From the NCBI GenBank assembly GCA_009760855.2, contig WPIO01000037.1, positions 786,001 to 850,000 of the forward strand: a stretch of DNA of 64,000 nucleotides, in the 5' to 3' direction. This DNA comes from Cristatella mucedo (taxonomy: Eukaryota > Bryozoa > Phylactolaemata > Cristatellidae). The position numbers and the translations under genes are program-made. A model generated the notes under the pieces. It worked only from the letters and a program-made list of their open reading frames with translations. It made no database searches and had not been told where the DNA came from. Of this stretch, positions 2,366 through 58,539 are shown one piece after another; within the stretch, counting starts at the first letter, position 1; the number at the start of each line of letters is the position of its first letter.

Positions 2366-3821
2366 AAGTGAGTTCTACTGTCCAGGACCTGCAGAGCAAA
2401 AGCTTCTGTCACCAATGGTCAGGGTAATGGAACAGCTAATTTATTATCCAAAGAGGATCCACCGCGGGCACGAGGGTGAAGGTGAAAGTGGTGCAGCAGT
2501 TCAACTACGTGTTTCCTGAATGTATTTACCAGTTGCTGTCCAGTCTCCATCGCCCGTTCATGTCAAAGACACTGGAGCGAGTTGTGGCAGACCATTTGAA
2601 CTCTTATACTGAGACATCAAACCTAGAAATTAAGTTCTAGTCTGGATTTAGAGCTAATCACTCCCTAGAGTCAGTGTTTCTTAGGATGTATAATGACCTT
2701 CTCAGGAGTGCAGACTTGGGTAAAGTCTCTCTGCTCGCTCTGTTTGATCTTTCGGTAGCTTTCAGTAGCTTTCGGTAGCTTTCGGTAGCTCTCGATGCTA
2801 TTGATCGTAAAGTCCTTCTTGAGCGTTATGCATCTCGCCCGGGCATCACTGGCACTGCACTTCAATAGTTCAGGTCCAGTCTCAGAGGGAGAATCCAGAC
2901 TATTGATGTGAACGGAGAAAGATCATCAGTGGAATCACTGAAGTACGAGAGCACCTCAGGGCTCCGTGCTCGGTCGGCTTCTTTTCACAGTCTATACTCT
3001 CGCTCTTGCCGATGTGATCGCCAAGCACAGTGTAGGCTTTCACTTCTATGCAGATGACCCTCAGTTGTACGTTCGCTTTGATTCCTACCAGCGATCGAGC
3101 TCGTCGAATTCTCTACACTGCCTTGCTGCACGTATTGATGACACCTGCCCATTGATGGCAGCCAAATTTCTTAAATTGAACGACGACAAAACCAACCTAC
3201 TAGTTATGAGAAAACCAAGTGTGATTGAGAAATTGGAAAACCTAACGCTCAAAATCGGCTCCGCCAGCATGTCTCATGTTGAATCTGCACATAATCTAGG
3301 TGTCCTGCTCCAATGTGACCTATAACTAGTTGACCATAACAACTTCACAGTCAAGTCCGCCTTTTTTCATCTGCACATCATTGCTAAAATGTGGGCTTGT
3401 TGAGACAGGAACAGCACATCCAAATTGGTCCATGCATTTGCGACCTCCCGTCTTGACTTGTGTAATACACTGCTTGATGGTTTACCGGCATGTGCAATCA
3501 GGCGCTTACAGCTGGTGCAAAACTCTGCAGCTAGGCTTGTCTGTCGTGAGCGTCGCAGTTTCCACATCACACCACTTCTCGCCGACCTGCACTAGCTCCC
3601 AATCATTCAGCGTATCGACTTGAAAGGTTTTATCACTTACTTTTAGGTCCCTTCCTTCTCTGGCTCCGGCCTATCTATCAGAACTACTCCCCATGAGGGG
3701 AGGAATCGTAAAACCCGCTGTTCTGTTCCGCTGTTCCGCTGTGCTGTTCTGACTCGAATCGTTCAGCCTTCGATTTAGATATCTTACCTCGTACGAACCT
3801 CAAAACCGTCGGAAACCGTGC

Positions 3822-5512
3822 TGTTGTGTTTGTGCGGGCAGTTGCGCACAGATCAAGACGGCTCAGGCAAATGCTGTTTATTAAAGGAAACCCAGGATCG
3901 GGCCACCACGGCCAACACGCTGGCCTGGAAGCAACTGCTGCCAGTGGGTCCGCTGTCTCTACCGGAAGAGTTCGGTGGGTGGATAAGCCAGGCGGACCCA
4001 ACATCCTCTCTTCCCAACTGTGGCTGACTGAGCATCGGTCGGCTTCTAGAAGCTACGTGTTACCTGCTTGTAGGAAGCACACCAAACCATGGCCTTTGGT
4101 GACCAGCTGGATGAGTAGGCCACCAGCTTTAAGCCACCGGTGTGGCATAGCCAGAGCCCTTCTCTCACAACCAGGGATTAGGCTCGTGCCTCCTCACTCT
4201 GCCGCCCGGGTGTGGAATGTCTCCGTCGTCTAGGCGGCTGCTTGCACATCGCCGGCTCTTCTTGCCAACATAGCAGCTTCGACAGCACTCACCGGCTTCA
4301 TAGCAGGGCCAACCGGCGTCGTAGTCGCAGCACCGACCGGCGTCGTAGTATAGCCGGCTAGCATCGTAGCAACACATCCTGGCGTTGACGTCGCAGCGCT
4401 AACCGGCGTAGCAACACTGACCGTTGTCGGCGTGGCAGTGCTGACCGTCGTAGCAGCACTAGCCAGAGCAACCGTGCTGACCGATGCTGCAGCACTGACC
4501 GTCGTAGCACCTGGCGGCGTCGCACCTGGCTTGTCGTCGTCGAAGTGCTGACCGTAGTCGCAGCCGTCTCGTTGCCCGTCATCAGTACCGTCTCGGTGAC
4601 CTCCACCACTGCTGCCCTCTCGCGGAACTCTGCGGTCGTCTGGCAGCGAGCAGTTTCGTTGACGGGCGTCTTTCGGGCCGCCACCTCGTGGGCCCGTGCC
4701 ACCGCGTCCGCCAGTGCCATCGTGTCCGGCTCCTTGCGGATCGCCATTTCGAGGACCGCTAGCACTTCGTGGGCTGCAACATCCTCTGCCTCCTCGAAAG
4801 CCGCCGACTGCGAGGCAGCCAATACTTCAAAGGGCACAGCCACAGGCTGCTGCTCCACCGTCGCTGCCGTCTGCTGCTGCTCTGGCCCCGTCCTGACAGG
4901 CACTTGTGGCACAGACATATTAGACGGCAGAAAATTTGTCCCGTTACTAAAGCTTGTATAAAAGCTCTTACAAATGCGACTCGAACAGGAACATCCACCG
5001 CAAATGTAGCAAACCTCAGGCACAGAGGCAGAGGAAAGAGGAAGAATCCTCCTGACAAGTGCTACAAGGTCCTGTAGCTGGAGTTCGGCCGGTTTACGTG
5101 GAGCTACCACCAGCTTGAGCATGGAATACAACTTAACCGGAAGGATGCTTATAAGCACTGCCTTTCGTCGGGTCTCCTCTGAAATGTCTCTCTGAAATTT
5201 CTCCTCACACATGCTCTCAGCAATTGCGACGTAGTCTGCATACGTCTGCTCCCCAGACGCTGGCTGAGCTCTCGTACCAGATCGATTCGCGTTCCAAGCA
5301 GCGTGTTCTTCGAATCCCATTCTCGCCGCCACTGTTATGTTTGTGCGGGCAGTCGCTCGCAGATCAAGACGGCTCAGGCAGATGCCTTTGATTTCGGAAA
5401 CGTGGAACCGTGCCGCACGGCCAGCACGCGGGCCTGGAAGCAACTGCTGCCAGTGGGTCCCCTATCTCTACCGGAAGAGCTCGGTGGGTGGATAAGCCAG
5501 GCGGACCGAGCA
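3822..5512 (-). mobile_element. Complete short LTR retrotransposon (TRIM-like, gag-only), nested in a LINE
   Basis: Two direct repeats, 3822-4003 (182 bp) and 5333-5512 (180 bp), start TG and end CA. They are flanked by a perfect 5-bp target duplication CGTGC (3817-3821 and 5513-5517). In minus orientation a primer-binding site lies one base inside the 5' LTR (5331 downward: TGGCGGCGAGAATGGGATTC). Its complement has the exact geometry of a tRNA 3' end with CCA and closely resembles eukaryotic tRNA-Ser(GCU). A polypurine tract, GGGAAGAGGA, abuts the 3' LTR (4004-4013). The interior is only about 1.33 kb, carries a gag-like frame and shows no protease, RT, RNase H or integrase, so the element is non-autonomous. 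It interrupts a plus-strand LINE whose sequence resumes at 5513. Confidence 0.87.
4358..5320 (-). CDS. Gag-like ORF of the TRIM-like LTR element (320 aa)
   Basis: The ATG at 5318-5320 lies within the primer-binding region, 12 bp inside the LTR edge. Residues about 20-90 (from ASGEQTYADYVAIAES through the RRKAVLISILPV region to the LVALVRRI region) look like the helical capsid-type segment of LTR-retrotransposon Gag proteins. A Cys cluster (CYICGGCSCSSRIC) occupies the zinc-knuckle position but lacks the His of the CCHC pattern. The Ala/Thr/Glu-rich middle and Arg/Leu-rich C-terminus come from a degenerate tandem region (about 4230-4560, CTGACCGTCGTAGCA-like units) and may not be native. The frame is open, but whether it is expressed is unknown. 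Confidence 0.55.
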   Translation of the reverse strand: MGFEEHAAWNANRSGTRAQPASGEQTYADYVAIAESMCEEKFQRDISEETRRKAVLISILPVKLYSMLKLVVAPRKPAELQLQDLVALVRRILPLSSASVPEVCYICGGCSCSSRICKSFYTSFSNGTNFLPSNMSVPQVPVRTGPEQQQTAATVEQQPVAVPFEVLAASQSAAFEEAEDVAAHEVLAVLEMAIRKEPDTMALADAVARAHEVAARKTPVNETARCQTTAEFRERAAVVEVTETVLMTGNETAATTVSTSTTTSQVRRRQVLRRSVLQHRSARLLWLVLLRRSALPRRQRSVLLRRLALRRQRQDVLLRC

Positions 5513-11055: not shown

Positions 11056-11243
11056 CTACGCATCCGATAGGAGAGCGGTGGCGTCCGGCTCGGACGCGGA
11101 TGCCGCCCGTCGCCTCCTGGCGCGGATAGCTAGCAGACCCACTGCGGCCACACAGGCTACTGTCATGACCGCCGCCCAAGCTGCCATTCCGGTCACGAGC
11201 GGGCCGTTGTAGCTGCTCGCCGCCGCCGCTGCTGCCGGTGCGC
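11056..11243 (-). CDS. Exon 12: juxtamembrane, transmembrane helix, cytoplasmic tail, stop
   Basis: The acceptor (GTCTTGTCATTGTAG) ends at 11244; the TAG stop is at 11056-11058. The exon encodes an Ala-rich stalk, then a hydrophobic helix of about 25 residues (about 4019-4043), then RARRRR and a 22-residue tail ending ALLSDA. The hydrophobic segment followed by a basic cluster is a classical single-pass, type I stop-transfer. The tail contains DATALL, fitting the acidic dileucine sorting pattern [DE]xxxL[LI]. No PDZ ligand or tyrosine motif is visible. Support comes from the matching phase-1 acceptor and the coherent topology with the exon 1 signal peptide. Confidence 0.82.
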
Positions 11244-12140
11244 CTACAATGACAAGACGCGGCGCCGCGCGGTGGGCGGCTGGCGGCGGGAGGCTGCACG
11301 GCGGCGAGGAGCCTGAGGCCGCACGGCGGCCCCGCATCCTCCGCAATGCTCCGCACGCCCGAGGCGCGTGCGCCGCGCCGCGCCCCTCGCCGCTGGCTAT
11401 ATACCTATATCCGCGGACTTTCCGAACGCCGTCAAGTCCAGACACTGGTAGCTGCCGACCGTGTTGATGCAGATCTTGGGCGAAGGACAGTTCTGATCCA
11501 CGAACGTCCTGCTCGCGCACTCGTTTCGGTCTGCAAGGAAGAGCGCCGTGAAAAGCTGAGGCGTCAACGTGCGCAGCGCGCTGCTTCCGGCTCGGAGCCG
11601 CCGGAGCCGTGCACTTCCGGCGGCTGCGGGCAGCCAGCGCAACGAGCGCTCAACGCGTCGGCGTCGGGCGGGCGCCTTACCTTCGCAGCCGACCATGTCG
11701 GTGAGCAGCTGGAAGCCGGTGCGGCACGAGCAGCTGGCCACGCCCTTTCCGGGGTCGGTGCAAATGTGTTCACAGCCGCCGTTGGCGACGCTGCACGCGT
11801 TCTGGTAGACGCACTGCGTTCCGTTCAGCGGCTTAATGACCTGGGCCTGGCCGACGGCGGTGGAGCAGTAGCACTCATACTTGGAATCGTGGTCGTAATA
11901 TCCGCAAGTGACGTCGCCGGCTGAAAGAGAAATGTAACTAAGGCGACGTCGGTAGGCGCCGCCGCCGCCGGCCGCCGCCGCCTCTCAGGGCTACTAGCGT
12001 TGCGCAAGGTGCGCCGCCGTCTCCTGCTCCTCCTGCGCAGCACATCGCCCGACCTTTGACCCGACAACACCCCCCCCCCGCCGCCTCAGCGAAGCCGCCG
12101 CCACTGCTACGTACGTACGCCCGCCCGCCCTCTCGGTCAC

Positions 12141-12177
<37 letters not shown>

Positions 12178-15100
12178 CGAGAGTAAAGGCGTGGGGGCGG
12201 GGCGAGGCGAGGCGAGGCGAGGCGTGCAGAGTGCGAGCCGCCGGCCACTCACCGAAGCACCCTCCGGTGGCTTTCACGAGCGCCGCCTGTCCCGTCGAAC
12301 GGCACGAGCAGCCGGCGGCGTTGGGGCAGGCGCCGATGTAGGCGATGCTGAGCGGGAAGCCGTCGCAGCTCTGCGCGAGCACCTGGCGCGAGTAGACGGC
12401 CAGCGCTCCCGTTTTTTGCATCGTGGCCGGGCAGTTGCAGTAGTAGCCGCCCGGCGTGTTGACGCATTCGTTCGAGCACTGGGCGCTGCCCTCGCGACAC
12501 TCGTCGATATCTGCGAGCGAGCGAACGACGAGCGGGGTCGAGGACAAGTCGTCGCTCGACGGCGACAGCGGACGCGAAAGGACGCGGCCGCTCGGCGGCC
12601 ACGACGGCGGCGGCATCTTCCGGCGGCCGCCGAGCGGAGGAGCTGCGACGGAGGAGCTGCGGCCGCGCGCGCGGGCGACGGGGGGCGGGGCGACGGCGGG
12701 GCGGGGCGGGGCGGGTTGAAGGGAAGCGCGTGCGCGGCGCTCGCTCGCGCCCACCTTCGCACACGTAGTCCCCGAACAGCCTGTAGCCGTTGCGGCAGCT
12801 GCAGTTGAAGCTGCCGTTCGTGTTCGTGCACAGCTGATCGCACTTGCCGTTGGCCACCGCGCACTCGTTGACGTCCGTGCAGTTGGTTCCGTTGAGCAGC
12901 ACCAGGCTCAGCTTGACCGTGCAGTAGCACAGCTTGGCGCCGACGTACTGGTCGCAGTACAGCGACCCGGCTGCGGGCGGCGGCAACGCGGCGATGCGAG
13001 ATAGATCCGTCGTCCGCGTTTCGCTCGCGCGCCCCCCCCCCCTCGAGACGGCCGCAGCTCGCAAAGGGGCGGCGCCGGGAGGGCGAGCGGGCGGGCGGCG
13101 TGCAAAGCTGGCTCGCCCCGAGCGGCTCGGAGAGACTCGCGCGACGACGGGAGACTCGCTTGGCGGGCGGGGGCCTGGTGTCTGAGCGGGGCCTGAGCGC
13201 GCGACGCCGCGGGCACTGGCCGCTGGCGGCGAGCGCGCCGGAAGTGTCGGAGCTGCGGCTGCAGGCGAGACTCACCGTCGCAGTCCTTGTCCGTGAAGTT
13301 GGTCTGTCCCACGTAGCTGAGACCGGCGTCGCAGGCGCAGTAGTAGCCGCCCAGCGTGTTGACGCAGCGGTTCGAGCAGCCGCCGTTGTTCACCAGACAC
13401 TCGTTCTTGTCGTCCGCCGCCTTGCCCGCGTCGCCGGTGGCTCCGCGCAGGCCCTGCGGTCCCGAGCTGCCCCGGTCGCCCTTGGCGCCAGCGTCGCCTT
13501 TCGGTCCGGCGGCGCCGGTCGGGCCGGCCGCTCCGGCGCTGCCCGTCGCGCCGGCGCTGCCCTGGTCGCCCTTGGCGCCAGCGTCGCCCTTCTGGCCGCT
13601 CGGGCCGGCCGGACCCTGGGCGCCGGCGGGACCCGGCGCGCCCGGCGCGCCGGTCGAGCCGGCGACGCCCGGCGCGCCGTTGGCGCCGTTGGCTCCGGTG
13701 CTGCCGGCCGCGCCCTTCGCACCGGTCGCACCGACCGGGCCCGGAGCGCCGATGGCGCCGGCCGCTCCGGCGGCTCCCGGGCTGCCCGCGTCGCCCTTGT
13801 CGCCCTTCGCTCCGTTGAGGCCGGCGTCTCCTCGCGAGCCCGGCGCGCCCGGCGCCCCTTGGTCGCCCTTGGCGCCGGCGACGCCCTGGACGCCCGGGTT
13901 GCCCTTGTCTCCTTGCGCGCCCTGACTTCCCGGCGTGCCCTGCGGGCCTGTCGAGCCCGTCGCGCCGTTGATGCCCGGCTGGCCGTCGTTTCCCGGGGTT
14001 CCGGCTTGGCCCGTCGGTCCCTCTTCGCCGGCCGGTCCTTGCGGTCCGGCCTCGCCGCGCGCGCCGGTCGCTCCGTCGTTGCCGCGAGCGCCCGTCGGTC
14101 CTTGCGGTCCGCTGCTTCCGGTCCAGCCTTGCGCGCCGCTGGCGCCGTCGTTGCCACTTCGGCCCGGGGCTCCCGGAGCGCCCGTGGCGCCCGTAGTGCC
14201 CGTAGCGCCGTTGGCGCCGGCCGCGCCAGTCTGGCCGGCGGCTCCGGTGGCGCCGGCCGCGCCGCTGGCGCCGGCCGCGCCGGTCTGGCCGGTGGCTCCG
14301 TTGGCGCCGGTCGCTCCTGCGTCGCCTTTCGGCCCTTGCGGTCCGGTCGCACCGGCGGTGCCGGCGGCTCCTATTGAACGAAGAGGGATTGATGAAAGAT
14401 ATGTGCGCAATTAGACCTGTTAAAGGACGCCTCCTACGGAGCGCCAAGCGGGCGAACTTGGATCTCCTTTTCCTAGGCACGTGGCGGCGCAAGCTGCAGA
14501 GGGCGACCGCGTCAATAGGGGGTTGCGTGGAGCGCGCCGAGCGCACCGCAGGAACGCACAAATGGCTGCCAGCTTAAGATGGCTACCGTGTTGTGCAACC
14601 CAACGACGAGGAGGGAGTCGCTTGATCGATAGAGGAGCCACAAGCTAGCGTGCGGCGCATGCACGTCTTACCGTCACGCCCGCTGGCTCCGACGGCGCCT
14701 GGGGAGCCCGCGGCACCGGCGGCGCCATCCTGGCCGCGGTCGCCTTTGTCGCCTTTCTGGCCCGCGCTGCCCGCGTCGCCGTGCTCGCCCTTCGGGCCCT
14801 GCTGACCCGTCGCTCCCTGAGAGCCCGTCTGGCCGGTGGCTCCGGCGGCGCCGGCGGCTCCGGCGGCGCCGGCGACTCCGGCGGCGCCGGTGGCTCCTGC
14901 GTCGCCTGAGATCGAAACGCGAGTCTGGCTAAGCGTCGCGGCGCAACGGCGCGTCGCGGAGGAGCGGCGGCAAGCAGGAGAGCGCTCGCTCCAAGCGATA
15001 CTAAATGTAATCCGGACGTCCGGGCAGCGCAGCGAGCAGCGAGGCGAGAGCGCGTCGCCATCGCTTCGGCGGCTCCTGGCCGTGCGCTGCAGCCCGGAAG

Positions 15101-18100
15101 CTCGGAAGATTCGGCCTTCGCTCCGAAATTCGAAGTCGAGTCGAAGCACGACGGGTTTCGCGCCGTTTGGGCCCTGCCCGCCGTCTTTCTAGCGTTCACC
15201 CGACCTGTCGGCAGTGGCGTAACTAATTACCTTTGTCGCCCTTATCTCCCCGAGCGCCCGGGCCGCCCGCGGCGCCGGTCGCGCCCGGCGCGCCCTGGTC
15301 GCCCTTGGCGCCGGTGGCCCCAACCGCTCCGCTCGCGCCCGTGGCGCCCGGCGCTCCGGTGGCGCCCGTGGAGCCGTTGGTGCCGTTGGCGCCGGCAAGT
15401 CCCGCCGGACCGGTGGGTCCGGCGGCGCCCGCTGCGCCGTCGCTGCCTCGGTCGCCTTTCACTCCTGCGTCGCCTTTAGCGCCAGTGGCGCCAGCCGCTC
15501 CGTCGCGGCCTGCAAACGAAAAAGAGCGTCACTAGACGTCACGTCCGCCGGCCTCGCGCCGCCGCCGCCGCGGCTGCTGGCCTCCGCTCGGCGTTCGAGA
15601 GCTCGATGGGCGGGAGCGGTGTCGGGGGCGGTGGGTAATGCGCTCACCGTTGGCTCCGGCACTGCCGGTGGCGCCGGCCGGTCCCTGCGCGCCGGTCGCT
15701 CCCTGCGCGCCGGTCGCTCCTGCCGCTCCGGCGGCGCCGTCCGCCCCGCGGTCGCCCTTGGCGGCCGCGGCGCCGGGCGCGCCCGGCGAGCCCGCGTCTC
15801 CCTTCGGTCCTGCTGGTCCGGTGGCGCCGTCCAGCCCTCGGGCGCCCTGCTGGCCGGCGGCGCCCGTCGCTCCGTCGTGCCCGTTGGCGCCGTCGCTTCC
15901 TCGGGCGCCCTGCGGGCCGGTGGCGCCGCTCGCGCCGCTCGCGCCGTCCCGGCCGGCGGCGCCGGCCGCTCCCGTCTGTCCCGGCTGCCCGGTGGCGCCC
16001 GCGGCTCCGGTCGCGCCGGCCGCTCCGCTTTGGCCGCTCGCGCCGTCCTGTCCGCGATCGCCCTTGTCACCCTTAGCGCCCGCGGTTCCGGGCACACCGG
16101 CTGCTCCGGCTGCGCCGGTCTGGCCCGGCGCACCCTGAGCGCCCGAGGCGCCCGCGGCTCCCGACGCGCCCTGAAGGCCGCTCGGACCCTGCGGACCCGT
16201 GGCGCCGGCGGGTCCGGTCGCGCCGGCCGCACCCGGCGCGCCCATGTCGCCCTGCTGACCCGCATCGCCCTTGAGGCCGTTGACTCCCGGAGCTCCGTCG
16301 CGTCCAGTGGCGCCTTGCGCGCCAGTCGCGCCGCTGGCTCCCTGCGCTCCGTTCGCGCCGGCCGCTCCTTTCGCTCCGGTCGCGCCCGGCTGACCGCTGG
16401 CGCCCGCCGGTCCGGTGGAACCAGCGCTTCCGGCGGCACCAGTCGCACCGGTCTCGCCGGCTGCACCGCCGGCTCCCGGCGCTCCGGCCGCCCCGCTGGC
16501 TCCGGTGGCGCCCGGCGCTCCGTTCTGTCCGTCGCTGCCGCGGTCGCCCTTGTCGCCTTTGCTTCCGGTCTGTCCGTCTCGTCCTGCCTCGCCGGCGTCG
16601 CCCTTGGCCCCGGCCGCTCCGCTGGCGCCGGCCTCTCCTTTCTGGCCCTGAACACCTTGCGCTCCGGTCGGACCGGCGGCGCCTGGCAGGCCGGTCGGAC
16701 CGGTCGCACCCTGAGATCCGGGTCCTCCGTCGCGTCCGGCCTGTCCCTGAGGTCCGGCGGCGCCCGCGGCTCCCGTCGGCCCGGCGGCGCCCGGCGCACC
16801 CGGCTCTCCGCTGGCGCCGCTGGCGCCGCTTTGCCCGGGTGCGCCCGTCGCGCCCGCAGCTCCGGCGACGCCCGTGCTGCCCCGCTCGCCGACATCGCCC
16901 TTGGCACCCGGAGCGCCGGCGGCGCCCGTCGCGCCGGCGGCGCCTGCGGCGCCAGGTGCTCCCGGCGCTCCGCTCGCTCCCGCGGCGCCGGTGGCTCCGG
17001 AAGCTCCGGGCGTTCCGGCCTGTCCGTCGTAGCCGCGTTCTCCCTTCTGTCCCGGAGCGCCGGCAGCGCCGGCCGCGCCGGCCGCTCCTTGCGCTCCGGG
17101 CGCGCCCGTCGCGCCCGAGGAGCCTGTCGCTCCGGTTTGACCTGAAAGACGGAACGGCCTGAAGTCGTCGCGGCTGCGGCACGATTTTGGCACGCGGCTC
17201 GCGCGCACTTCGGCAGCCGCACAGATAGACCCCACCGATTCGCTAGCTGGAGTGGACCTCTTGGAAAAGGGGAATGGAAAAGGGAAAAGGAAAAGGAAAA
17301 AGGAAAAGGGAAGAGGAAAAGGGAAAAGGGGAAAGGAAAAGGAAAAGGAAAAGAGGAGCGGTAGGGGAAGGCAAACGCGAACGGTGAAACGCACCGTCGG
17401 AGCTGAAAATCAATGGACGCCATCGTCGAGACGGCAGGTTCGAAAGTAACGAACTCTGATACCAAAATGGCGGATCCGAAGCGATTTCGGGAGCGACTCG
17501 CTCGCTCGCGAAAGGAAAGGCAGACGAAGAAACAACGCAACTCTTTTCCGTCACCCCTAAGGGCTGTGCCTGCGCGGACAGGCGTGCCCGCTCAGCGGGC
17601 CGCTCACTCACCGGCCGCTCCCGGTCGTCCGTCGGCGCCTGCGTCGCCCTTCTGACCGGCCGCGCCGCTGGCTCCCTGAAGTCCGGCGGCGCCGTCTGCC
17701 CCTCGATCGCCCTTGGCTCCGGGTGATCCCGCGGCACCTGCTGCGCCGCTGACTCCCGGAGCGCCAGCCGAGCCCGTCGCTCCGGTCGCACCCGCCGCGC
17801 CGTCGTTGCCGCGATCGCCCTTGGTGCCCGGCTGTCCGGCCTCGCCTTGCGCTCCGTTCGCGCCGGCAGCGCCGGCCGCACCGGACGCTCCGTCGGCGCC
17901 TCGGTCGCCCTTTTCGCCGGCATCGCCCTTGGCGCCCGTCGCGCCGGTCTGACCCTGCGGGCCCGCGCCGCCCTGCGGTCCGGTCGCGCCGGCCTGTCCG
18001 TCGCGTCCGGGCGCGCCGGCTGCACCGGTCGCGCCGGAAGCGCCTGCGGGTCCGGCGGCCCCGGTGGCACCGGTGCCGCCGGGAGCTCCGGCGGCGCCGG

Positions 18101-21100
18101 GCTGGCCCGGGGCTCCTGCCGCTCCGCTCACGCCCTGCAGTCCGGTGGTTCCAGCGCTGCCGGCGGCACCTGAGGCGCCCGCAGCGCCCGTGTCGCCCCG
18201 GCTACCCTTGTCGCCCGTGCTTCCGGAGGCACCCGTCTGACCGGTCTGACCGTTGGCTCCTTGGTCGCCGGTGCGACCCGCCACGCCGCTGTCGCCTCTG
18301 TCACCTTTCGGTCCGACCTGACCCGACGCCCCAACGGCCCCCGGGGCACCCGGTGCGCCCGCCTCACCGTCGCGACCGTTCAAGCCAGCGGCACCCGCGG
18401 CGCCGGTCGGTCCGGCTGCGCCCGTCGCGCCGTCGGTTCCGTTCTTTCCCGGGGCGCCGTCGTGGCCGGCGGCGCCCTGGTCTCCCTTGGCTCCGCTGGC
18501 GCCCGCGGCGCCGGTTGCTCCGCTGGAGCCGGCGGCGCCAAGCGCTCCGGGCTGACCGTCGTTGCCTCTAGCGCCAGTGTCGCCGCGATCTCCCTTGGCG
18601 CCTGCCGGGCCGGCCGCACCCGTTGGGCCGGCGAGGCCGGTCGCTCCGGCGGCTCCCGTGGCGCCGGCCGCGCCGGCGGCTCCGGCCGCGCCAGTCGCTC
18701 CGTCGGCGCCGCGCGCTCCAGTCTGGCCGGTCGCTCCCGGCTGACCCTGGTCGCCCTTGGCAGCGCTGGCGCCGTCCCTTCCGGCAGGTCCGGGCGCTCC
18801 TTGGGCACCCGGAGTTCCGTCGCGGCCATCCCTGCCGGCTGGTCCGGTGGGTCCTGCTGCGCCGGCCGGTCCGACTGGGCCAGTCAGTCCGGTCGCTCCG
18901 CTAGCTCCATTGACGCCGTCCCGGCCAGCCGCACCGGCCGATCCGGCGGCACCCTGTTCGCCCTTGCTGCCAGGCAGACCGTCGTTTCCGCGAGCGCCCG
19001 CGGCGCCGTCGTTGCCTCGAGCGCCGGTGGCGCCCGGCGCTCCGGGGGCACCCGGACTTCCGGCGGCTCCCTGCGCTCCGGTGGCTCCGTCGCGTCCGTC
19101 GAGGCCGTTCACTCCCGGAAGACCTGCGCTTCCAGGCGCGCCCTGAGCTCCGGTGGCTCCCGGCTGTCCCGCACTGCCGGCGTCGCCCTTCGATCCGGGC
19201 CCTCCGTCCCTGCCCGGCGCTCCGGGAGCGCCGGTCTGGCCCTCCGCTCCCGGCCGACCGTCGTTGCCATGCGGGCCGGTCGCGCCGGCCGGTCCAGCTG
19301 AGCCAGGCAGGCCATCCTGGCCGCGGTCTCCCTTGGCGCCCGCCAGTCCGGTGGCTCCGGCCGCGCCCGCCGCTCCGCTGGCGCCTGGCGCTCCCGCCGC
19401 GCCCGCCGCACCCGGGCTTCCTGTCGCCCCATCTGCGCCGCGGCTGCCGGTCGCGCCGGTCGCACCAGCGGCTCCCGGCGCTCCGTTCAAGCCGCTCGCT
19501 CCGTCGTGGCCGGCAGCGCCGGCATCTCCGCGCTCGCCCTTGGCGCCGGCCGCTCCCTGCTGGCCTTGCGCACCGGACGCGCCGGTCTGACCTGTCGCCC
19601 CGGCGACGCCCGGCGCTCCGCTGGCGCCCGAATCGCCTCGGTCGCCCTTTGCGCCGGCCGCTCCCGTCGCGCCGGTCAGGCCTTGAGCGCCCGGCGCTCC
19701 GGCCGCACCGGTGGCGCCGACGTCGCCTTTGCTGCCGGCGGCGCCGGTGGCACCCTGCAGTCCCGTCTCACCCGCTGCTCCGGTCGCTCCAGCCGATCCG
19801 GGGCTGCCGGTGGCTCCCGGAGAGCCTGCGGCTCCCGGAGTGCCGGTGGCGCCGTTGGCGCCGGCAGCTCCAGTCTGGCCAGCCTCTCCGTGGGCGCCTC
19901 TCTGTCCGTCCAGGCCCGGAGTGCCGGCGGCGCCGGTCGCGCCGTCTCGGCCGGCGGCTCCCTGCGCCCCCTGGTCGCCCTTCGGCCCCGCCAGTCCCGT
20001 AGGACCAGCAGGACCGGTGCCGCCGTTGGCGCCGTCTCTGCCTGCCGCACCGGGAGCGCCGGTCTGACCCGTGGCTCCGGCGCTGCCTGGAGCTCCCACG
20101 CCTCCCGTCTGACCTGGCGAACCTGTTTGACCCGGCTGACCGACGGCGCCCGGCTGGCCTGGCCTTCCGTCGGCACCGCTCGCACCGCTCGCTCCGGCGG
20201 CTCCCTGGTCGCCTCGGTCGCCTTTAGGTCCAGCGGCACCGGTCTGGCCCGCCGCTCCGGTCTGTCCCGTCGAGCCTGCCGCACCGGCGACTCCCTGGTC
20301 GCCTTTGTCTCCCCTGTCACCGGTGCTTCCTGGCGCACCTGCAAACGTATGTTTAGGCGCTTGCGGTCAGTGCTGGCAAAGTCTACTGCCGGCAGCCGGG
20401 AGCCTGCGAAAAGGCAGCCGATGGCAGTATGGGGGCGGGGCTAAAACGTGAGCTCGCGAGGCCGTTCGCTGAGCCGCTTGCTTACCCTTTGCACCTGCAG
20501 CGCCCGTCTCGCCGGACGCTCCCGTCTGTCCCGGCGAACCCTGGGCTCCGGTCTGGCCCGGCGCCCCGATCTGGCCCGGCGCACCAGCTGCGCCGTCGCG
20601 ACCGCTGGTCCCGGAGGCACCCTGCAAGCCCATGCTGCCCGGCGAGCCGGTCGCGCCGTCCCTGCCCGGAGTTCCGTTGAGGCCCGTGCTGCCGGCAGGT
20701 CCTTGGGCGCCGTCGACTCCGCGATCGCCCTTCGGTCCTGTGGCTCCGGCTGCGCCGGCGGCGCCGCTCTCGCCCTTCTGTCCGCTGGCGCCGGTCGCTC
20801 CGCTGGCGCCAGTCTCGCCCGTGGCGCCGGTCGCTCCGTCGCTCCCGGAGGTGCCCTGCCAGCCGGTGGCACCCGCCTGGCCGGGCGCACCTGGCGCTCC
20901 GTCTCTGCCCGGCAAACCGGGCGCTCCGTCGTGGCCCGTCGGTCCCTGCACTCCCGGGGCGCCGGCGGCTCCCGCTTCGCCGGCCGCGCCGTCTCGGCCC
21001 GGATTTCCCGCTGAGCCTGTCGGTCCGGCATTGCCCTGGTCGCCTTTCGGTCCGGCGGCCCCGCTGTCGCCTCGCGCTCCGGCGTCGCCTCTGTCGCCCT

Positions 21101-24100
21101 TAACTCCTTGCTGCCCGTTCGCTCCTGACGCTCCGGTGGCGCCGGAGGCTCCGCTCGAGCCCGCCGGTCCGGGCGCGCCGGTGCTCCCCGGCGCGCCGGC
21201 GTCTCCCGTGCGGCCCGCAGCACCAGCGCTTCCGGCGGCCCCTGGGCTGCCCGTAGCGCCGGCTGCGCCGGGGCTGCCTTGATCTCCCTTGGTGCCCTGT
21301 AAGCCTTGATCGCCCTTGGCGCCGCTGCTGCCCGGAGCACCTGCGTCACCCTGGCTGCCCTTAGGTCCGACGGGTCCCTGAAGCCCGGTGGCACCGAGCG
21401 CGCCCGGTTCGCCGCGGTCGCCCCTTTCGCCCTTCTGGCCAGTCGCTCCGTCGACACCCGGCGCTCCGCCGGCACCTGGCGCTCCCGCTGCGCCATCGTG
21501 GCCATCTCGACCGGGTGTGCCGATATCGCCCTTGCTGCCTTTAGGGCCCACGTTGCCACGCCCTCCCTGCGGGCCGCTCTCTCCCTTGGCGCCCGGCTCT
21601 CCAGCAGGTCCTTGGCTCCCGGTTGCGCCAGGGGCACCCGTGGCTCCGTTGGTCCCATTGAACCCGTCGTTTCCACGAGCTCCCGGCGCACCCGCCGGTC
21701 CAGCGGCGCCAGTGGCGCCGGGCGCTCCGCTCGTGCCAGCGATTCCGGTCGGCCCGGCTGCGCCGGCAGCGCCGGCGGCACCCGGTGCACCGCTGGCCCC
21801 GCTCTGACCAGGCGCGCCGGCGACCCCGTCGGCTCCTCGATCTCCCTTCGGTCCGGTGGCTCCGGACATCCCGTCCCGACCCGGAGCTCCGTCGTGGCCG
21901 CTGGTCCCAGTGTCTCCTTTCTGACCGGCCAGACCGGTGGCACCCGTGGCACCGGCGGCGCCAGGACCTCCTTCGCTGCCGCGATCGCCCTTGGCACCGG
22001 CGGCGCCCGCCAAACCTGTGGCGCCCTGTGCTCCCGTCTGCCCGGCCGCGCCGGGCAGACCTTGACTTCCGGAGGTGCCCGCGTCACCCTTGGCACCGAC
22101 GTCGCCTCGGTCGCCTTTCTGTCCCGGCGCACCGGTCGCTCCGCTGCTGCCTTGCGATCCAGTCTGTCCGGCAGCGCCGGCAGCCCCGGTGGCACCGGTC
22201 GGTCCGCAGGCGCCGGTCACACCGGTGGCGCCGGTCACTCCGGCGCCTCCTCGATCGCCTTTCGCGCCAGCGGCTCCGCTCAGGCCGCTGGCTCCGGTGG
22301 CGCCCTGCGTGCCCGTCGCTCCGTCGCTGCCGCGGTCGCCCTTGGAACCGCTGGCGCCGGTGTCACCCGTCCGACCGGAACTGCCTTGTTGTCCGGCGGC
22401 TCCCGAAGCACCGGTCTGTCCCGGAGCACCGGCTGCACCGGGTGTGCCGTCGCGACCGGCCGAGCCAGCCTCTCCGGTCACGCCGTCACGTCCCTGGCTT
22501 CCGGTTGGACCTTGCGGACCGGTGGCACCCGGCGCTCCAGGTGCACCGTTGTTTCCTGGCGCGCCCGTGGCGCCTGCCGTTCCAGACTGGCCTGTCTGTC
22601 CCGTGGCTCCGGCAGCGCCCCTGTCTCCTTGAATGCCCGGTGCACCGGTCGCTCCGGCTGCGCCGTTTGAGCCGTCGCTGCCGCGGTCTCCCTTCAGACC
22701 CTGTTGGCCCGGTGTGCCCGTGGCGCCATTGGCTCCTACCGGACCCGTGGAGCCGTCGCTGCCTCGGTCGCCCTTCTCACCCTGCAAGCCGGTGGCTCCT
22801 GCCGCACCGTCCCGGCCTGCGGCGCCCGTCTGTCCCGATGCTCCTTGCAAGCCAGGGGCACCTGTCTGGCCCGGTTGGCCGTCCGAACCGCTGGCTCCCT
22901 GCGTTCCGTCGTTGCCTCGAGCGCCGGCGTCGCCTTTGGCGCCGACGGCACCGGAAGCTCCGGCGTCGCCCTTTTGGCCAGTGGCTCCTTGGACGCCTGG
23001 AGCACCCGCTGCGCCCTGCAAGCCCTGCGCTCCGGTGGCGCCGGCAGCGCCGGTCTGACCGGTGGCCCCGTCGCGGCCGTCTGCACCCTTGCTGCCGTCT
23101 GCTCCGTCGCGACCGGAACCACCCGTTGCTCCACTGGCTCCGGGAGCGCCGGGCGCACCGGCGTCCCCGCGAGCTCCTGCGGCGCCCGAGGCGCCGTCGC
23201 GGCCGTCGTGGCCAGCCGGACCAGGAGAGCCAGTTGCCCCGGAGGCGCCGGTCTGGCCTGGACGGCCGTCCGCTCCGTCAGAGCCTCGGTCGCCCTTGGC
23301 TCCGGGAGCGCCATTTTCTCCGGCGGCTCCGTCCTTTCCGTTCTGTCCCGCGGCTCCCTGAGCTCCGGCCGCGCCGGTCGCGCCGGTCGCGCCGTCGTTG
23401 CCCCGCGAGCCGCTGGCACCGGTCTGGCCCGACGCTCCCGTTGGGCCAGCGGCGCCATTCAGGCCGTCGCGGCCCGGCGCGCCGGTGCTACCCTGGTCGC
23501 CCGTCTGTCCCTGAGCTCCGGCAGCGCCGTTAAGGCCTCTGTCGCCCTGCGATCCACTGTCTCCACGGTCGCCCTTGGCACCCTGGTCGCCTTTCGGTCC
23601 GATGGCGCCCGTGGCTCCGGCAGCGCCGGTGGCGCCATCTCGACCGTTGGCTCCGGAGGCACCTGAGCTTCCGGTCTCTCCCTTCGCCCCAGGCGCGCCA
23701 GCTGATCCCTGGCTGCCCGTGGCTCCTGTCTGGCCGGCTGCGCCAGCTTCGCCCTTGGCTCCGTCGCGTCCTGCAGCTCCGTCGGCGCCGCTCTGGCCGC
23801 GGTCGCCCTTGGCGCCCGACGCGCCCTGCAAGCCCGAGTCGCCGCGCTCGCCCTTCTGGCCGTCTCGGCCGTTCTGGCCTGGCGTTCCAGTTGGGCCGGC
23901 AGCTCCGGTCGGGCCGGTTTCGCCGGTCAAGCCCGCAACGCCGGCGGCGCCGGCGTTTCCTGTCGGGCCTTGCGCTCCGCTCTGGCCCGGCCCGCCGTTC
24001 TCGCCCTTCTCGCCCTTCTCGCCGTGCAAGCCGGCGTCGCCCTTGGCACCGGCGGCTCCGGGCGCGCCCGTGCCGCCGAGAGCACCGGTGGCTCCGGAGC

Positions 24101-26121
24101 TGCCCGTCTCGCCTTTGGAGCCCGCTGCGCCTTGCGGCCCCGTGTCGCCGGCCGAGCCCTTAGCGCCGACTGCGCCGCTGTCGCCGCGCTCGCCTTTCTG
24201 CCCGTTCGCTCCTGCCGAACCAGTCTGTCCCTGCTCTCCGCTCTGTCCGCTGCTGCCGCGGTCGCCCTGGCTGCCCTTGTCTCCGGCAGCACCTCGGTCG
24301 CCGGTATCACCCCGGTCGCCCTTCTGCCCGGTGTCGCCCTTGGCACCCGCAGCGCCGTCCTTACCGGGCTGACCGTCGTTGCCTCTCGCTCCCGGAGCGC
24401 CCGCGTCACCGTGGTCGCCTTTGTCACCACTCTGGCCGGTGGGACCTTGGCTGCCGCTGACTCCTGCTTCACCTTTCTGGCCAGCGGCGCCGGCGGCTCC
24501 ATTCGCTCCATCTCGGCCAGCTGCGCCGGTCTGTCCAGTTGCACCCTGGACGCCCTGAGCGCCCGGTGCGCCGAGGTCACCTGTCGAACCACTGCTGCCG
24601 GTGTCACCCTTGTCGCCCCGGCTTCCTGCGTCGCCCTTCTGCCCAGAAGCTCCGGTCAATCCAGCGGGTCCGATGCCTCCGGTCTGCCCCGCGTCACCCT
24701 GAGACCCCCTGCTGCCCTGCGCACCCGAGGCACCCTGCTCTCCTTTCGGTCCTGTAGATCCGGCGGCGCCGTGAACGCCCTGATCGCCTCGGTCGCCCTT
24801 GGCTCCAGCCGAACCGCTTGCGCCAGTATCGCCCTTGTCGCCATTGCTGCCGTCGCGGCCGCTGGCGCCCGAAGCTCCGCGGTCGCCGATCTGCCCCTTG
24901 TCGCCCTTGGCTCCACTGTCGCCGGCCGGGCCGGTCTGACCGGGTGATCCAGCCGCTCCACTTACTCCCGGCTGGCCGGTCTGACCGGCAGAGCCGCTGG
25001 CACCGGCGGGGCCCCTGTCACCCGTATCACCCTTTGCACCTGAAGCGCCATCGCTGCCCCGGGCTCCATCGCGTCCCGTCGGACCCTGCGGACCGATGGG
25101 TCCGACGTTGCCTTGGTCGCCTTTTGAGCCGGTGGCTCCCGGGACACCGCTATCACCCTGCGGACCCTTGGCTCCGGCGTTACCCGTCTGCCCTTGGCTG
25201 CCGGTGGGCCCTATCGGTCCTGGCTTTCCGTCAGTTCCCTGATCGCCCTTGGCTCCGCTCGATCCGGGCTGGCCGGCCACTCCTGGCTCGCCTTTGCTGC
25301 CAGCGTTGCCAGTGGCACCAGCCGGGCCGGTAGCGCCCTGCGGGCCGACCGAACCCGTGGCACCCGGCCGGCCGGCGTCGCCCGATGCACCCTTGGCCCC
25401 GCTTGAGCCTGTCGGGCCCGGGCCACCCAGATCGCCCTTGGCTCCTTTCGCTCCCGGGGCGCCGCTCGCTCCCATCGGACCGGTGCGGCCCGGCGCTCCA
25501 TTCGCACCGGCCGTCTGCCATCCAGCGCTACCGGGCTCGCCCTTCTGTCCTCTAGGTCCGGTGGGCCCAGCTGGAGCCCGAGCTGGCACTGGCGCAGGCG
25601 CCGGTGCGGAGCTGCCCCAGCTGAGGGCCGGAGCTGGCACTGGCGCAGGCGCCGGTGCGGAGCTGCCCCAGCTGAGGGCCGGAACTGGCGGCGCAGGCGC
25701 CGGTGCGGAGCCGCCAGAGTCGGACCACGAAAACCAGTTGTTGGCACTCGAACTTGATGATCCTACGAAGGAAAATGGCTGCCGCTGTTAACAGCAGTTA
25801 ACCTGTTAACAGCCAGGTTACACAGGTTCGAGGTCTACCGAGAAGCTAGAAGTAGCATCGGCAGCCATTTCGGCGGCCGAGGCCCTATCGATTGCCGGGG
25901 GAGAGGGGAGGGGGCCGCATCGATGGCGGCTGCTATCGCAACTTCGTCGTTCGGCCGCCATCGGGAGTCATCGGGAGTTGGCCAGCGCACCTAGCGAAGC
26001 AGCCTTTGAATCGCTCCTAGCGTGGCACCAGGCAAGCGGTCGACGCGCTACACGTACCGACGGCGACGCCTATCGAGCCGATCAGGGCCGATGCCAGCAG
26101 CGCCACCCTCGCGATCGTCAT
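11056..26121 (-). CDS. Giant membrane-anchored collagen-like protein with EGF stalk (12 coding exons, 4065 aa)
   Basis: Joining 26058-26121, 20486-25762, 17612-20338, 15648-17141, 15231-15509, 14672-14905, 13276-14370, 12755-12970, 12253-12510, 11681-11920, 11405-11530 and 11056-11243 on the minus strand gives 12,198 nt, an ATG, one terminal TAG and no internal stop. Every junction is GT-AG and phase 1. Layout: signal peptide 1 to about 22; Ser then Pro/Ala-rich linker to 86; Gly-X-Y rod about 87-3676, with one visible break (about 102-107); EGF-like and 4-Cys modules 3680-4003; transmembrane helix about 4019-4043; RARRRR stop-transfer; 22-residue tail. Collagen rods form trimers and EGF repeats form stiff, often calcium-bound stalks. 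I infer a type I surface protein projecting a long rod. No fibrillar COLF1, C1q or NC1 domain is visible. I do not recognise a named family. The function (adhesion, cuticle or matrix anchoring) is open. Confidence 0.88.
11405..11530 (-). CDS. Exon 11: truncated fifth EGF
   Basis: This 126-nt exon covers residues 3962-4003. Its acceptor (CTCTTCCTTGCAG) ends at 11531. The proposed donor GTATAT starts at 11404, immediately before an in-frame TAG that would otherwise end the protein. It encodes DRNECASRTFVDQNCPSP, then CINTVGSYQC, a calcium-binding EGF start with only the first four cysteines. The last two cysteines and their loop are missing, and the exon ends in FGKSADI. If exon 12 were not spliced on, read-through of the donor would give a secreted form ending three codons later (GI-stop). 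Confidence 0.78.
11681..11920 (-). CDS. Exon 10: 4-Cys mini-module and fourth EGF
   Basis: This 240-nt exon covers residues 3882-3961. Its acceptor (TTTCTCTTTCAG) ends at 11921 and its donor GTAAGG starts at 11680. It begins with a four-cysteine segment spaced C-x10-C-x-C-x17-C and ending NGTQC (a sequon, as in exon 8). An EGF domain follows: CSVANGGCEHIC, then CSCRTGFQLL and a closing VGCE. It lacks the D-x-D/N-E-C start and the central Asn signature, so it is probably not a calcium-binding EGF. Confidence 0.86.
12143..12172. repeat. GA microsatellite in intron 9
   Basis: Fifteen GA units between exons 9 and 10 of the collagen-like gene, followed by a GGCGA tandem run (about 12203-12222). 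Confidence 0.85.
12253..12510 (-). CDS. Exon 9: third calcium-binding EGF and 4-Cys mini-module
   Basis: This 258-nt exon covers residues 3796-3881. Its acceptor (TCGCTCGCAG) ends at 12511 and its donor GTGAGT starts at 12252. It opens DIDECREGSAQCSNEC and CVNTPGGYYCNC, a calcium-binding EGF with a long final loop closing at QSC. A second cysteine cluster spaced C-x5-C-x-C-x14-C ends the exon (GGCF). Exon length and phase are symmetric. Confidence 0.86.
12755..12970 (-). CDS. Exon 8: 4-Cys mini-module and second calcium-binding EGF
   Basis: This 216-nt exon covers residues 3724-3795. Its acceptor (CGCCCGCAG) ends at 12971 and its donor GTGGGC starts at 12754 (weaker than the others but GT). 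The first half has four cysteines spaced C-x8-C-x-C-x13-C and ends NGTNC, which contains an N-glycosylation sequon. The second half is a complete calcium-binding EGF: DVNECAVANGKCDQLC followed by CTNTNGSFNCSC and a last cysteine at DYVC. Exons 8 to 10 all contain a comparable short 4-Cys segment next to an EGF. Confidence 0.86.
13276..14370 (-). CDS. Exon 7: end of Gly-X-Y rod and first calcium-binding EGF domain
   Basis: This 1095-nt exon covers residues 3359-3723. Its acceptor (TTCGTTCAATAG) ends at 14371 and its donor GTGAGT starts at 13275. Gly-X-Y continues to about residue 3676. The sequence then passes directly into DKNECLVNNGGCSNRC and CVNTLGGYYCAC, a six-cysteine EGF domain (Cys 3683, 3690, 3694, 3703, 3705, 3722). 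The D-x-N-E-C start and the C-x-N-x4-Y-x-C-x-C core match the calcium-binding EGF consensus, including the Asn beta-hydroxylation signature. The rod-to-stalk boundary lies inside an exon, with no intron at the domain junction. Confidence 0.88.
14672..14905 (-). CDS. Exon 6: Gly-X-Y rod, residues 3281-3358
   Basis: This 234-nt exon has its acceptor (TTTCGATCTCAG) ending at 14906 and its donor GTAAGA starting at 14671. It encodes 78 residues (26 triplets) of unbroken Gly-X-Y. Like exon 5 it is an intact number of triplets and is symmetric in phase 1, so it is a candidate cassette exon. Confidence 0.85.
15231..15509 (-). CDS. Exon 5: Gly-X-Y rod, residues 3188-3280
   Basis: This 279-nt exon has its acceptor (TTTTTCGTTTGCAG) ending at 15510 and its donor GTAATT starting at 15230. 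It encodes 93 residues of unbroken Gly-X-Y, beginning GRDGAAGATGAKGDAG and ending in KGD-type triplets. The length is a multiple of 9, so it is a whole number of Gly-X-Y triplets and could be skipped without breaking frame or repeat register. Confidence 0.85.
15648..17141 (-). CDS. Exon 4: Gly-X-Y rod, residues 2690-3187
   Basis: This 1494-nt exon has its acceptor (CCGTCTTTCAG) ending at 17142 and its donor GTGAGC starting at 15647. All of it is Gly-X-Y in register. Ala and Thr dominate X and Y. One tyrosine-containing triplet (GYD) occurs near the start. I see no RGD here, in contrast to exons 2 and 3. Confidence 0.87.
17612..20338 (-). CDS. Exon 3: Gly-X-Y rod, residues 1781-2689
   Basis: This 2727-nt exon has an acceptor CGTTTGCAG ending at 20339 and a donor GTGAGT starting at 17611. 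It is entirely Gly-X-Y with no cysteine and no break that I can see. The first residues are GAPGSTGDRGDKGDQ, continuing the repeat register of exon 2 exactly. It contains several RGD tripeptides and frequent KGD/KGE pairs. The following intron (17142-17611, 470 nt, the longest in the coding region) contains a purine-rich GGAAAA-type low-complexity tract at about 17264-17355. Confidence 0.88.
20486..25762 (-). CDS. Exon 2: linker plus first 1.7 kb-residue block of Gly-X-Y rod
   Basis: One 5277-nt exon encodes residues 22-1780 plus the first base of 1781. The acceptor (TTTTCCTTCGTAG) ends at 25763 and the donor GTAAGC starts at 20485. Residues 22-40 are Ser/Asn/Trp-rich. Residues 41-86 are a Pro/Ala-rich linker built from tandem copies of a PALSWGSSAPAPAPV-like unit. 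Gly-X-Y starts at Gly87 and runs to the exon end. The only break I see is GWQTAG at about 102-107. X is very often Ala; Y is often Thr, Ala, Pro, Ser, Asp, Gln or Lys. KGD/KGE and RGD triplet pairs recur. The single cysteine of the rod is Cys1207 (codon 22206-22208). Reading the opposite strand gives long Pro/Ala-rich shadow frames, which I do not regard as genes. Confidence 0.88.
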
Positions 26122-57590: not shown

Positions 57591-57689
57591 TGTTTCAGGT
57601 TCGAAGAGATTGGGTTACGTCTCAGTGCCTGTGTATGCAATGAAATACGGCGATAGCATTTTCACGGCCGATTTAGGAAACTGTAGCTA

Positions 57690-58328
57690 GAGGATGTATT
57701 CGCGAGAGTGGATGTGTTCGCGAGAGGATGTCTACGAGAGAGTGGATGTGTTCGCGAGAGGATGTCTCCGAAAGAGTGGATGTGTTCGCGAGAGGATGTC
57801 TCCGAGAGAGTGGATGTGTTCGCGAGAGGATGTCTCCGAGAGAGTGGATGTGTTCGCGAGAGATGGATGATGTGTTCGCGAGAGGATGTCTCCGAGAGAG
57901 TGGATGTGTTCGCGAGAGGATGTCTCCGAGAGAGTGGATGTGTTCGCGAGAGGATGTCTCCGAGAGTGGATGTGTTCGCGAGAGGATGTCTCCGAGAGTG
58001 GATGTGTTCGCGAGAGGATGTCTCCGAGAGTGGATGTGTTCGCGAGAGGATGTCTCCGAGAGGATGTGTTCGCCGAGAGTGGAGAGTGTGTTCGCGAGAG
58101 GATGTCTCCGAGAGTGATGTGTTGAGAGGATGTTCGCGAGAGGATGTCTCCGAGAGTGGATGTGTTCGCGAGAGGATCCGAGAGTGGATGTGTTCGCGAG
58201 ATGTCTCCGAGAGTGGATGTGTTCGCGAGAGGATGTCTCCGAGAGTGGATGTGTTCGCGAGAGGATGTCTCCGAGAGTGGATGTGTTCGCGAGAGGATGT
58301 CTCCGAGAGTGGATGTGTTCGCGAAAGT
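57690..58328. repeat. 34/32-bp minisatellite, about 19 units
   Basis: The unit GTGGATGTGTTCGCGAGAGG plus ATGTCTCCGAGA(GA). Left copies are mostly 34 bp with GAGAGAGTGG; right copies are 32 bp with GAGAGTGG. Partial and rearranged units occur at about 57862, 58070-58130 and 58178. Frames stay open on both strands because the unit lacks stops. I do not call a gene. Confidence 0.9.
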
Positions 58329-58539
58329 GACATCAAAGCGACCAACAAAGCGACGTTCGACCCGTTCGACTGAAGGAAAAGGACACTCAGCAGCTTTCCG
58401 ATCTTTCGCCTGAAACTGCGGCAAGTCCTAGGGCGACCGCGCGCACCGCATGCGAGCAGCTGTAGTCTTTCTCCAAGGTCCGCAACTTGAACAAGCCACT
58501 CCCGATTATGTCTACTGCAATCGATAGGCTGCGACCTTG

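Follow-up and report, generated by a model that had tools for sequence, protein, structure and literature searches.

A putative C-terminally anchored collagen with a micrometre-scale predicted rod and an EGF-containing stalk in the bryozoan Cristatella mucedo

A gene in the window, by which we mean the whole 64,000-nucleotide stretch of DNA analysed, probably encodes a single-pass type I membrane collagen that is anchored by its C-terminus and holds a rod of about 1 micrometre off the cell, linking the epithelium to the outer matrix. Several observations argue for this reading: the chain is open, with phase-1 introns and rod exons whose lengths are multiples of 9; the rod is near-perfect and strongly enriched in charge pairs; stalk and helix are conserved; a relative (P0001) is continuous from rod to tail; a paralogue (C5) holds rod and first EGF domain in one exon; and structure prediction returns EGF folds and a helix.

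Gene layout and the Gly-X-Y rod

The collagen gene runs on the minus strand from 26121 to 11056, and its 12 exons join into 4065 residues (Table 1). The preliminary description had proposed 12 GT-AG exons in one frame giving a product of this length, and the model was borne out: every one of the 11 introns starts with GT, ends with AG and lies in phase 1, with lengths of 138-470 bases. All four exons that fall entirely within the rod, E3-E6, measure a multiple of 9 bases. The linker of exon 2 contains three imperfect 17-residue repeats of 51 bases each at 25566-25715 (Tandem Repeats Finder). An Rfam scan gave no match, and a Pfam scan of 20 neighbouring open frames returned a single weak reverse transcriptase.

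Table 1. Features of the collagen gene and its paralogue; rod and helix coordinates derive from the exon table
Feature	Position	Strand	Content
Exon 1	26058..26121	-	Start codon and putative signal peptide, residues 1-21; 64 bases
Exon 2	20486..25762	-	Pro/Ala linker, then first part of the rod
Exon 3	17612..20338	-	Rod, 2727 bases
Exon 4	15648..17141	-	Rod, 1494 bases
Exon 5	15231..15509	-	Rod, 279 bases
Exon 6	14672..14905	-	Rod, 234 bases
Exon 7	13276..14370	-	End of rod and EGF domain 1 together (Pfam)
Exon 8	12755..12970	-	4-cysteine module M1 and EGF domain 2
Exon 9	12253..12510	-	EGF domain 3 and 4-cysteine module M2
Exon 10	11681..11920	-	4-cysteine module M3 and EGF domain 4
Exon 11	11405..11530	-	Cut-short calcium-type EGF, 4 cysteines
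Exon 12	11056..11243	-	Juxtamembrane linker, predicted transmembrane helix, basic cytoplasmic tail, stop
Gly-X-Y rod	13418..25568, introns included	-	Residues 87-3676
Transmembrane helix	11125..11196	-	About residues 4020-4043; hydrophobicity and predicted helix
C5 paralogue	G000:C5, 536190-539185	-	Stalk 45.7% identical to the collagen protein

The rod comprises 1196 triplets, confirming the earlier estimate of about 1195 triplets and about 3590 residues; 1194 of them carry Gly, and in the other two (residues 2306 and 3149) Gly is replaced by Ala. It is broken by a single short interruption near residue 105, after which 1189 triplets, including both substitutions, run in register. Gly is encoded by all four of its codons (GGC 611, GGA 361, GGT 183, GGG 56) and just one 15-residue word is repeated, being found twice; thus the rod does not reflect a simple repeat in the DNA. 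Given these varied codons and few repeated words, a copied-repeat or assembly artefact is unlikely. Tandem Repeats Finder reported many short imperfect arrays within the rod, for example of 9, 18 and 27 bases. At 1196 x 3 x 0.286 nm, the rod would extend for about 1 micrometre.

Charge pairs of the Lys/Arg-Gly-Asp/Glu type stabilise triple helices. K-G-D/E occurs 92 times in the rod, whereas 2000 shuffles of the triplets gave 14.4 +/- 3.4 (maximum 26); RGD occurs 20 times, against 6.7 +/- 2.4 in the same control (maximum 17). The charge autocorrelation peaks at 90, 276 and 228 residues (0.092, 0.088 and 0.077, respectively; two standard errors, 0.033). Periods of 228 and 231 are close to the 234-residue period of fibrils, 234 itself is outside the 12 highest, and we base no conclusion on these values.

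Stalk, membrane helix and relatives

Between rod and helix lies a stalk with 40 cysteines, in the order EGF1/M1/EGF2/EGF3/M2/M3/EGF4/cut-short EGF. The preliminary description had called it an EGF stalk; four EGF domains are indeed present, but three 4-cysteine modules and a cut-short EGF stand among them, and the stalk is not a run of plain EGF repeats. The 4065 residues contain only two hydrophobic stretches, defined as 19-residue windows over 1.6 (windows starting at 1-7 and 4017-4028), and the calls of signal peptide and helix rest on this hydrophobicity and on the layout. The basic tail has 22 residues, with RARRRR and no cysteine. Since the stalk cysteines and six N-glycosylation sequons are N-terminal to the helix and RARRRR is on its opposite side, the distribution argues for type I topology.

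From 22 sequences, structure prediction of the stalk recovered EGF folds together with a helix spanning stalk residues 341-374 (block pLDDT 64-87), and the model was poor at modules M1-M3; with 4 sequences, mean pLDDT was 34. In a Foldseek search with the stalk model, the best PDB matches were EGF proteins, with low TM-scores, at most 0.21 over the query among the matches listed.

Three relatives, P0001, P0002 and P0003, have the same order of EGF domains and 4-cysteine modules, the cut-short last EGF and the helix. P0001 is 73% identical (76% over stalk and helix); a single frame, running across the places of five introns of the collagen gene, holds its 37 rod triplets, stalk, helix and tail, and it thereby shares the rod end and the conserved tail as well. 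Its rod is likewise Thr-rich and Pro-poor, with 12 Thr and 2 Pro at the 37 Y positions. P0002 is 66% identical (67% over stalk and helix) and has stalk and helix in common with the collagen protein. P0003, a protein of the bryozoan Watersipora subatra annotated 'matrilin-2-like', is about 40% identical over stalk and helix, and its database model has three triplets ahead of the EGFs; among the candidates scored, those sharing most words, it is the sole named relative covering at least 90% of the stalk query. Judged by these sequences, the anchoring half of the protein, stalk and helix, is conserved across other species. The order first described, from signal peptide through linker, rod, EGF stalk and helix to basic tail, is therefore supported, with the relatives backing its stalk-helix-tail half and P0001 the fusion to a rod. 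No orthologue rod beyond 37 triplets was seen among the relatives found.

More distant matches were partial. Named molluscs, the annelid Ridgeia and the brachiopod Lingula gave EGF matches only to parts of the query (P0004, P0006, P0015 and P0017 were read among these). A full-length search returned 1104 matches, among which those listed were mostly fibrillins and other EGF proteins by name, with a Collagen domain in 0 of 120; the name MUA-3 also occurs among the hits. In scans of genome and viral contigs, 63 bacterial-titled records and 1 viral record match parts of the stalk.

Within the same genome, the end of the rod and EGF1 likewise share an exon in the C5 paralogue, where four phase-1 stalk introns lie at places matching those of the collagen gene. 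Its rod is short and Pro-rich, with 32 triplets in the exon seen and Pro at 50% of Y positions. As joined, it lacks a matching helix and has a different hydrophobic C-terminus instead. Thus, neither helix anchoring nor great rod length is established as a family trait. We propose a C-terminally anchored collagen/EGF family with the order rod, EGF1/M1/EGF2/EGF3/M2/M3/EGF4/cut-short EGF and helix: it would be complete in the collagen protein and P0001, represented by stalk and helix in P0002 and P0003, and by rod and stalk without the helix in C5.

Proposed assembly and alternative readings

The likely function is that of a micrometre-long surface rod built from the membrane outwards, connecting the epithelium to the outer matrix. 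Stalk and small-residue helix would gather three chains in the membrane, and the triple helix would then zip from the membrane-proximal C-end towards the distal N-end; secreted collagens zip in this direction. Lys/Arg-Gly-Asp/Glu pairs would stabilise the Pro-poor rod, perhaps with help from sugars on Y-position Thr. It may reach from the epithelial surface to an outer matrix, which in a bryozoan would be the ectocyst, place, tissue and partner being our guess.

The rod might instead leave the cell. If the protein were a membrane-anchored precursor, its stalk and helix would act like a C-propeptide, and a protease would cut the Ala/Ser-rich linker to turn the rod into a free matrix collagen. 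A flexible juxtamembrane linker of this composition, APAAAAAASSYNGP, does lie between stalk and helix, and mammalian membrane collagens are shed. Further giant Thr-rich, Pro-poor collagens are present elsewhere in the genome (no comparable stalk was found beside those fetched), and a basic site directly precedes the rod in 5 of 9 giant collagen rods by pattern, with RERR and QKR added by eye, so collagens that are cut and released may be common. However, the protein has no dibasic or furin-type site outside its tail, which favours long-term residence on the cell, and the juxtamembrane linker differs among relatives. We regard release as possible but less likely.

Anchoring at the C-terminus leaves the other end of the chain to be considered. 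What backs the 64 bases of exon 1 is their frame, splice site and hydrophobicity; none of the relatives found covers this exon, and the 1379 bases upstream of the gene contain neither TATA[AT]A nor CCAAT. The true N-terminus could accordingly differ, for example if the chain opened with a signal anchor or carried another domain upstream, but the signal-peptide shape, an in-frame stop codon just upstream of the ATG (13 codons between) and the correct phase-1 join make this improbable.

It is very improbable that a collagen gene and a neighbouring gene for an EGF membrane protein have been wrongly joined. Introns 7-11 are short and four of the five are open in at least one frame, so that the joins rest on splice sites and relatives; yet the end of the rod and the first EGF share exon 7, as they share one exon in the C5 paralogue, and in P0001 a single frame extends from the rod to the tail. 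That the gene is a decaying or unexpressed copy, as the two Gly-to-Ala changes and the lack of AATAAA or ATTAAA closer than about 645 bases past the stop codon might hint, is hardly credible: no stop interrupts its 4065 codons, all but two of the 1196 triplets and every splice site are intact, and its stalk is conserved with P0001.

Returning to the type I membrane collagen, we tentatively suggest that it belongs to a lineage-specific class whose age may equal that of Bryozoa and whose chains trimerise at the membrane, which takes over this role from the C-propeptide. Rods of tens of triplets may have grown to more than a thousand, tying the epithelium at micrometre length to a Thr-rich coat built from the genome's other giant collagens. 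Anchoring by the C-terminus would offer a test of whether a membrane can stand in for the C-propeptide in starting a triple helix. If the reading is true, the protein would also be a micrometre-scale molecular ruler on the cell surface and could help to explain how such animals attach their outer coat; together with the Pro-poor, Thr-rich giants, it points to collagens in an animal whose chemistry does not follow the Pro/hydroxyproline rule.

Comparison with known collagens and receptors

The preliminary description had found the architecture unusual and recognised no named family for it. None of the families tested fits, but the protein is no orphan, given P0001, P0002 and the Watersipora relative. 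The Pfam scan covered its 411 C-terminal and 218 N-terminal residues. No COLF1 match, as in a fibrillar collagen, and no C4 match, as in collagen IV, was found in the 411 C-terminal residues. The matrilin name of P0003 does not carry over, as no von Willebrand A domain occurs in the scanned parts or among the listed Pfam domains of P0003. CCBE1 is secreted, with EGF preceding collagen; here the rod comes first and the helix last.

The MACIT collagens XIII, XXIII and XXV are type II proteins; each has three collagen domains with interruptions, and their C-terminal motif is conserved and contains Cys (PMC4678570). The collagen protein resembles them in combining a membrane anchor with an extracellular rod, but its N-terminus is signal-peptide-like, its Cys-rich stalk is N-terminal of the helix, its rod has one short interruption, and its tail is cysteine-free.

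The bacterial surface collagens Scl1 and Scl2 have a similar layout, with a distal N-terminus, a rod and a C-terminal anchor. Their NCBIfam model also picks up the Gly-X-Y of P0001, but with a score of 63 bits where the cut-off is 325, and LPXTG is absent from both the collagen protein and P0001. Nematode epidermis-cuticle receptors of the MUA-3 type are long type I proteins with EGF repeats that tie epithelium to outer matrix, and are without a collagen rod. The rods of annelid cuticle collagens are very long and poor in Pro, with Thr at Y positions, and include a 2.4 micrometre Thr-glycosylated rod in the cuticle; we know of none that is membrane-anchored. The membrane collagens known to us are type II and far shorter. 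On its sequence features, the collagen protein is a variant of membrane collagen that lies outside every named family tested.

Gene structure and rod

A gene of 12 exons with GT-AG sites and a single product of 4065 residues had been proposed in the preliminary description, and this is borne out for the window gene, a putative C-terminally anchored giant collagen. Its introns (138-470 bases each) are GT-AG in 11 of 11 cases and phase 1 in 11 of 11, and an in-frame stop lies upstream of the ATG, with 13 codons between them. All four rod-only exons are multiples of nine bases. Because phase 1 is uniform, each internal exon amounts to a complete module, an arrangement that would suit growth of the gene by exon duplication.

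The proposed Gly-X-Y rod of about 3590 residues likewise holds: it occupies residues 87-3676, where 1194 triplets have their Gly, two have Ala in its place and the register is briefly interrupted once, and a Pfam search with 218 N-terminal residues returned Collagen. Position X carries 44.3% Ala and 7.5% Pro; position Y carries 22.1% Ala, 18.9% Thr and 12.1% Pro; and the triplet composition of the whole rod contains no GPP. Charge pairs are strongly enriched, with 92 K-G-D/E observed vs 14.4 +/- 3.4 expected and 20 RGD vs 6.7 +/- 2.4 (2000 triplet shuffles). Pairs of these types stabilise triple helices, and their enrichment would offset the low Pro of the rod. There is a single cysteine, residue 1207. 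At a collagen triple helix rise of 0.286 nm per residue, the rod would be ~1.03 micrometres long. An excerpt of PMC4450265 gives 1014 residues as the limit of the fibrillar collagen domain; the window rod has ~3590 and is not of the fibrillar type.

A 51-base repeat (three copies, 92% matches) encodes the Pro/Ala/Trp linker ahead of the rod, its copy number perhaps varying between individuals. Elsewhere in the window are a minisatellite with units of ~16, 32 or 34 bases, open in several frames, and a reverse transcriptase fragment that we take to be LINE-like by motif; its RVT_1 match (6.5e-5) reaches 23.2 bits against a cut-off of 29.6.

Coordinates of features in the window and in other contigs of the same genome (G000)
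Feature	Sequence	Position	Strand
Window gene	window	26121-11056	minus
51-base linker repeat	window	25566-25715	
Reverse transcriptase fragment	window	2942-3322	plus
Minisatellite	window	57689-58329	
Stalk paralogue	C5	536190-539185	minus
Hydrophobic C-terminal end of paralogue	C5	536190-536650	
Collagen frames L080, L081	C66	6896376-6906246	
Five long collagen frames	C331	~806-1046 kb	minus

Stalk, helix and relatives

The EGF-type stalk described earlier is borne out, but it is more than a row of EGF repeats. By our count its 40 cysteines divide into 24 in four complete EGF domains, 12 in three 4-cysteine modules (M1-M3) and 4 in a final EGF that stops at cysteine four. Pfam assigned EGF-type domains to the 411 C-terminal residues (FXa_inhibition 5.7e-21, EGF_CA 1.8e-19), and the calcium-type pattern C-x-[DN]-x4-[FY]-x-C-x-C is present in EGF 1-3. 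The three modules share the form C-C-x-C-C, which matched no Pfam family. A predicted transmembrane helix at about residues 4020-4043 is followed by a 22-residue tail starting RARRRR. In a structure prediction run with 22 sequences (mean pLDDT 64.9), several EGFs and the helix were modelled well and M1-M3 poorly; the best PDB matches were EGF proteins (including NEL, Notch and LDL receptor), with low TM-scores over the whole query.

Among 22 proteins matched in one search and 90 in another, only P0001, P0002 and P0003 covered at least 90% of the query, with 76%, 67% and 40% identity to the window protein over stalk and helix; seven of the matched sequences were inspected. P0001 (503 residues, 12,651-base contig, source tag 'lgn') runs unbroken from rod through stalk and helix to tail across the places of five window-gene introns, and thus fits a spliced transcript; of its 37 visible rod triplets, 12 carry Thr and 2 carry Pro in the Y position, and its tail shares the end ALLSDA with the window protein. 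P0002 (source 'jgi') spans the stalk and the helix. P0003, from the bryozoan Watersipora subatra and annotated matrilin-2-like, has three triplets and then stalk and helix as in the window protein. The EGF stalk also has matches in four contigs (L001, L014, L017, L045) of one record titled as a Klebsiella pneumoniae MAG, a bin that is therefore probably misnamed or mixed.

Paralogue and other giant collagens of the genome

The own-genome assembly comprises 572 Mb in 688 contigs. A search of it with the last 89 residues gave three matches, two in the window gene and one on C5, and C5 was the sole match in a stalk profile scan of 11 stretches totalling 218 kb, part of which was masked. With the window gene as guide, five C5 exons were joined: one holding the rod end and EGF1, followed by four that encode the stalk. 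Each of the three middle exons (219/264/264 bases vs 216/258/240 in the window gene) has a length divisible by three, and their phase-1 joins coincide in place with those of the window gene. Identity is 45.7% with the window stalk and 36.1% with P0003. The rod exon seen has 32 triplets (Y 50% Pro, no Thr), which makes the visible rod of the window gene more than thirty times as long; an exon just upstream may hold a few more triplets, and there may be additional exons at greater distance. No helix was found in the five-exon join at the place of the window-gene helix. Read on, the last exon ends in a hydrophobic stretch with neither helix nor basic tail; this may represent a signal for a lipid anchor, or the frame may have been mis-read close to a run of G.

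With 150 candidates scored out of 1510, the genome holds at least 149 matches to collagen. In all eight long rods measured, on C66, C331 and C62, Thr fills 24-65% of Y, where other collagens carry hydroxyproline; the highest values, 65.2 and 64.5%, are both on C66. There, frames L080 and L081 (686 and 408 triplets, Thr in ~65% of Y, Pro 2% or less in X or Y) overlap with one reading-frame shift, either an indel or an assembly error. The five C331 frames, of 1270-1319 codons, are likely a tandem family. A basic site [RK]x[RK]R lies 25 residues or fewer before five of the eight rods; of the others, C331b has QKR, and none was found within 25 residues in two C66b frames. C62c, outside the eight measured, has RERR. 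Furin-like RYKR, RHRR, RQRR and RERR occur shortly ahead of the rod in long C66 and C62 frames, as do RQRR or QKR in two C331 frames inspected. These giant collagens thus appear to differ in type from the window protein and to be secreted or cut. Nematode cuticle collagens similarly have a furin-like site shortly ahead of the rod, and annelid cuticle collagens resemble the Thr-rich giants.

Topology and comparison with membrane collagens

The topology of the window protein is argued from its two hydrophobic stretches and from the placing of the cysteines and sequons on one side, opposite the basic tail. Trimerisation would then occur next to the membrane, the triple helix would zip from C to N, and the rod would stand on the cell. 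In a phylactolaemate bryozoan, one natural partner would be the outer cuticle (ectocyst), described as gelatinous or encrusted in an excerpt of PMC10952699. The rod may stay on the cell or be shed; staying is favoured, because the protein has no dibasic site outside the tail.

Titles and abstract starts of the papers listed, with most subscription journals outside coverage, yielded as a weak negative no fitting type I, membrane-anchored or C-terminally anchored EGF-bearing collagen. We rate the window gene as a new form of membrane-anchored collagen. Whereas the MACIT (collagens XIII, XXIII and XXV) are type II by class criterion, as stated in an excerpt of PMC4678570, the window protein is argued to be type I.
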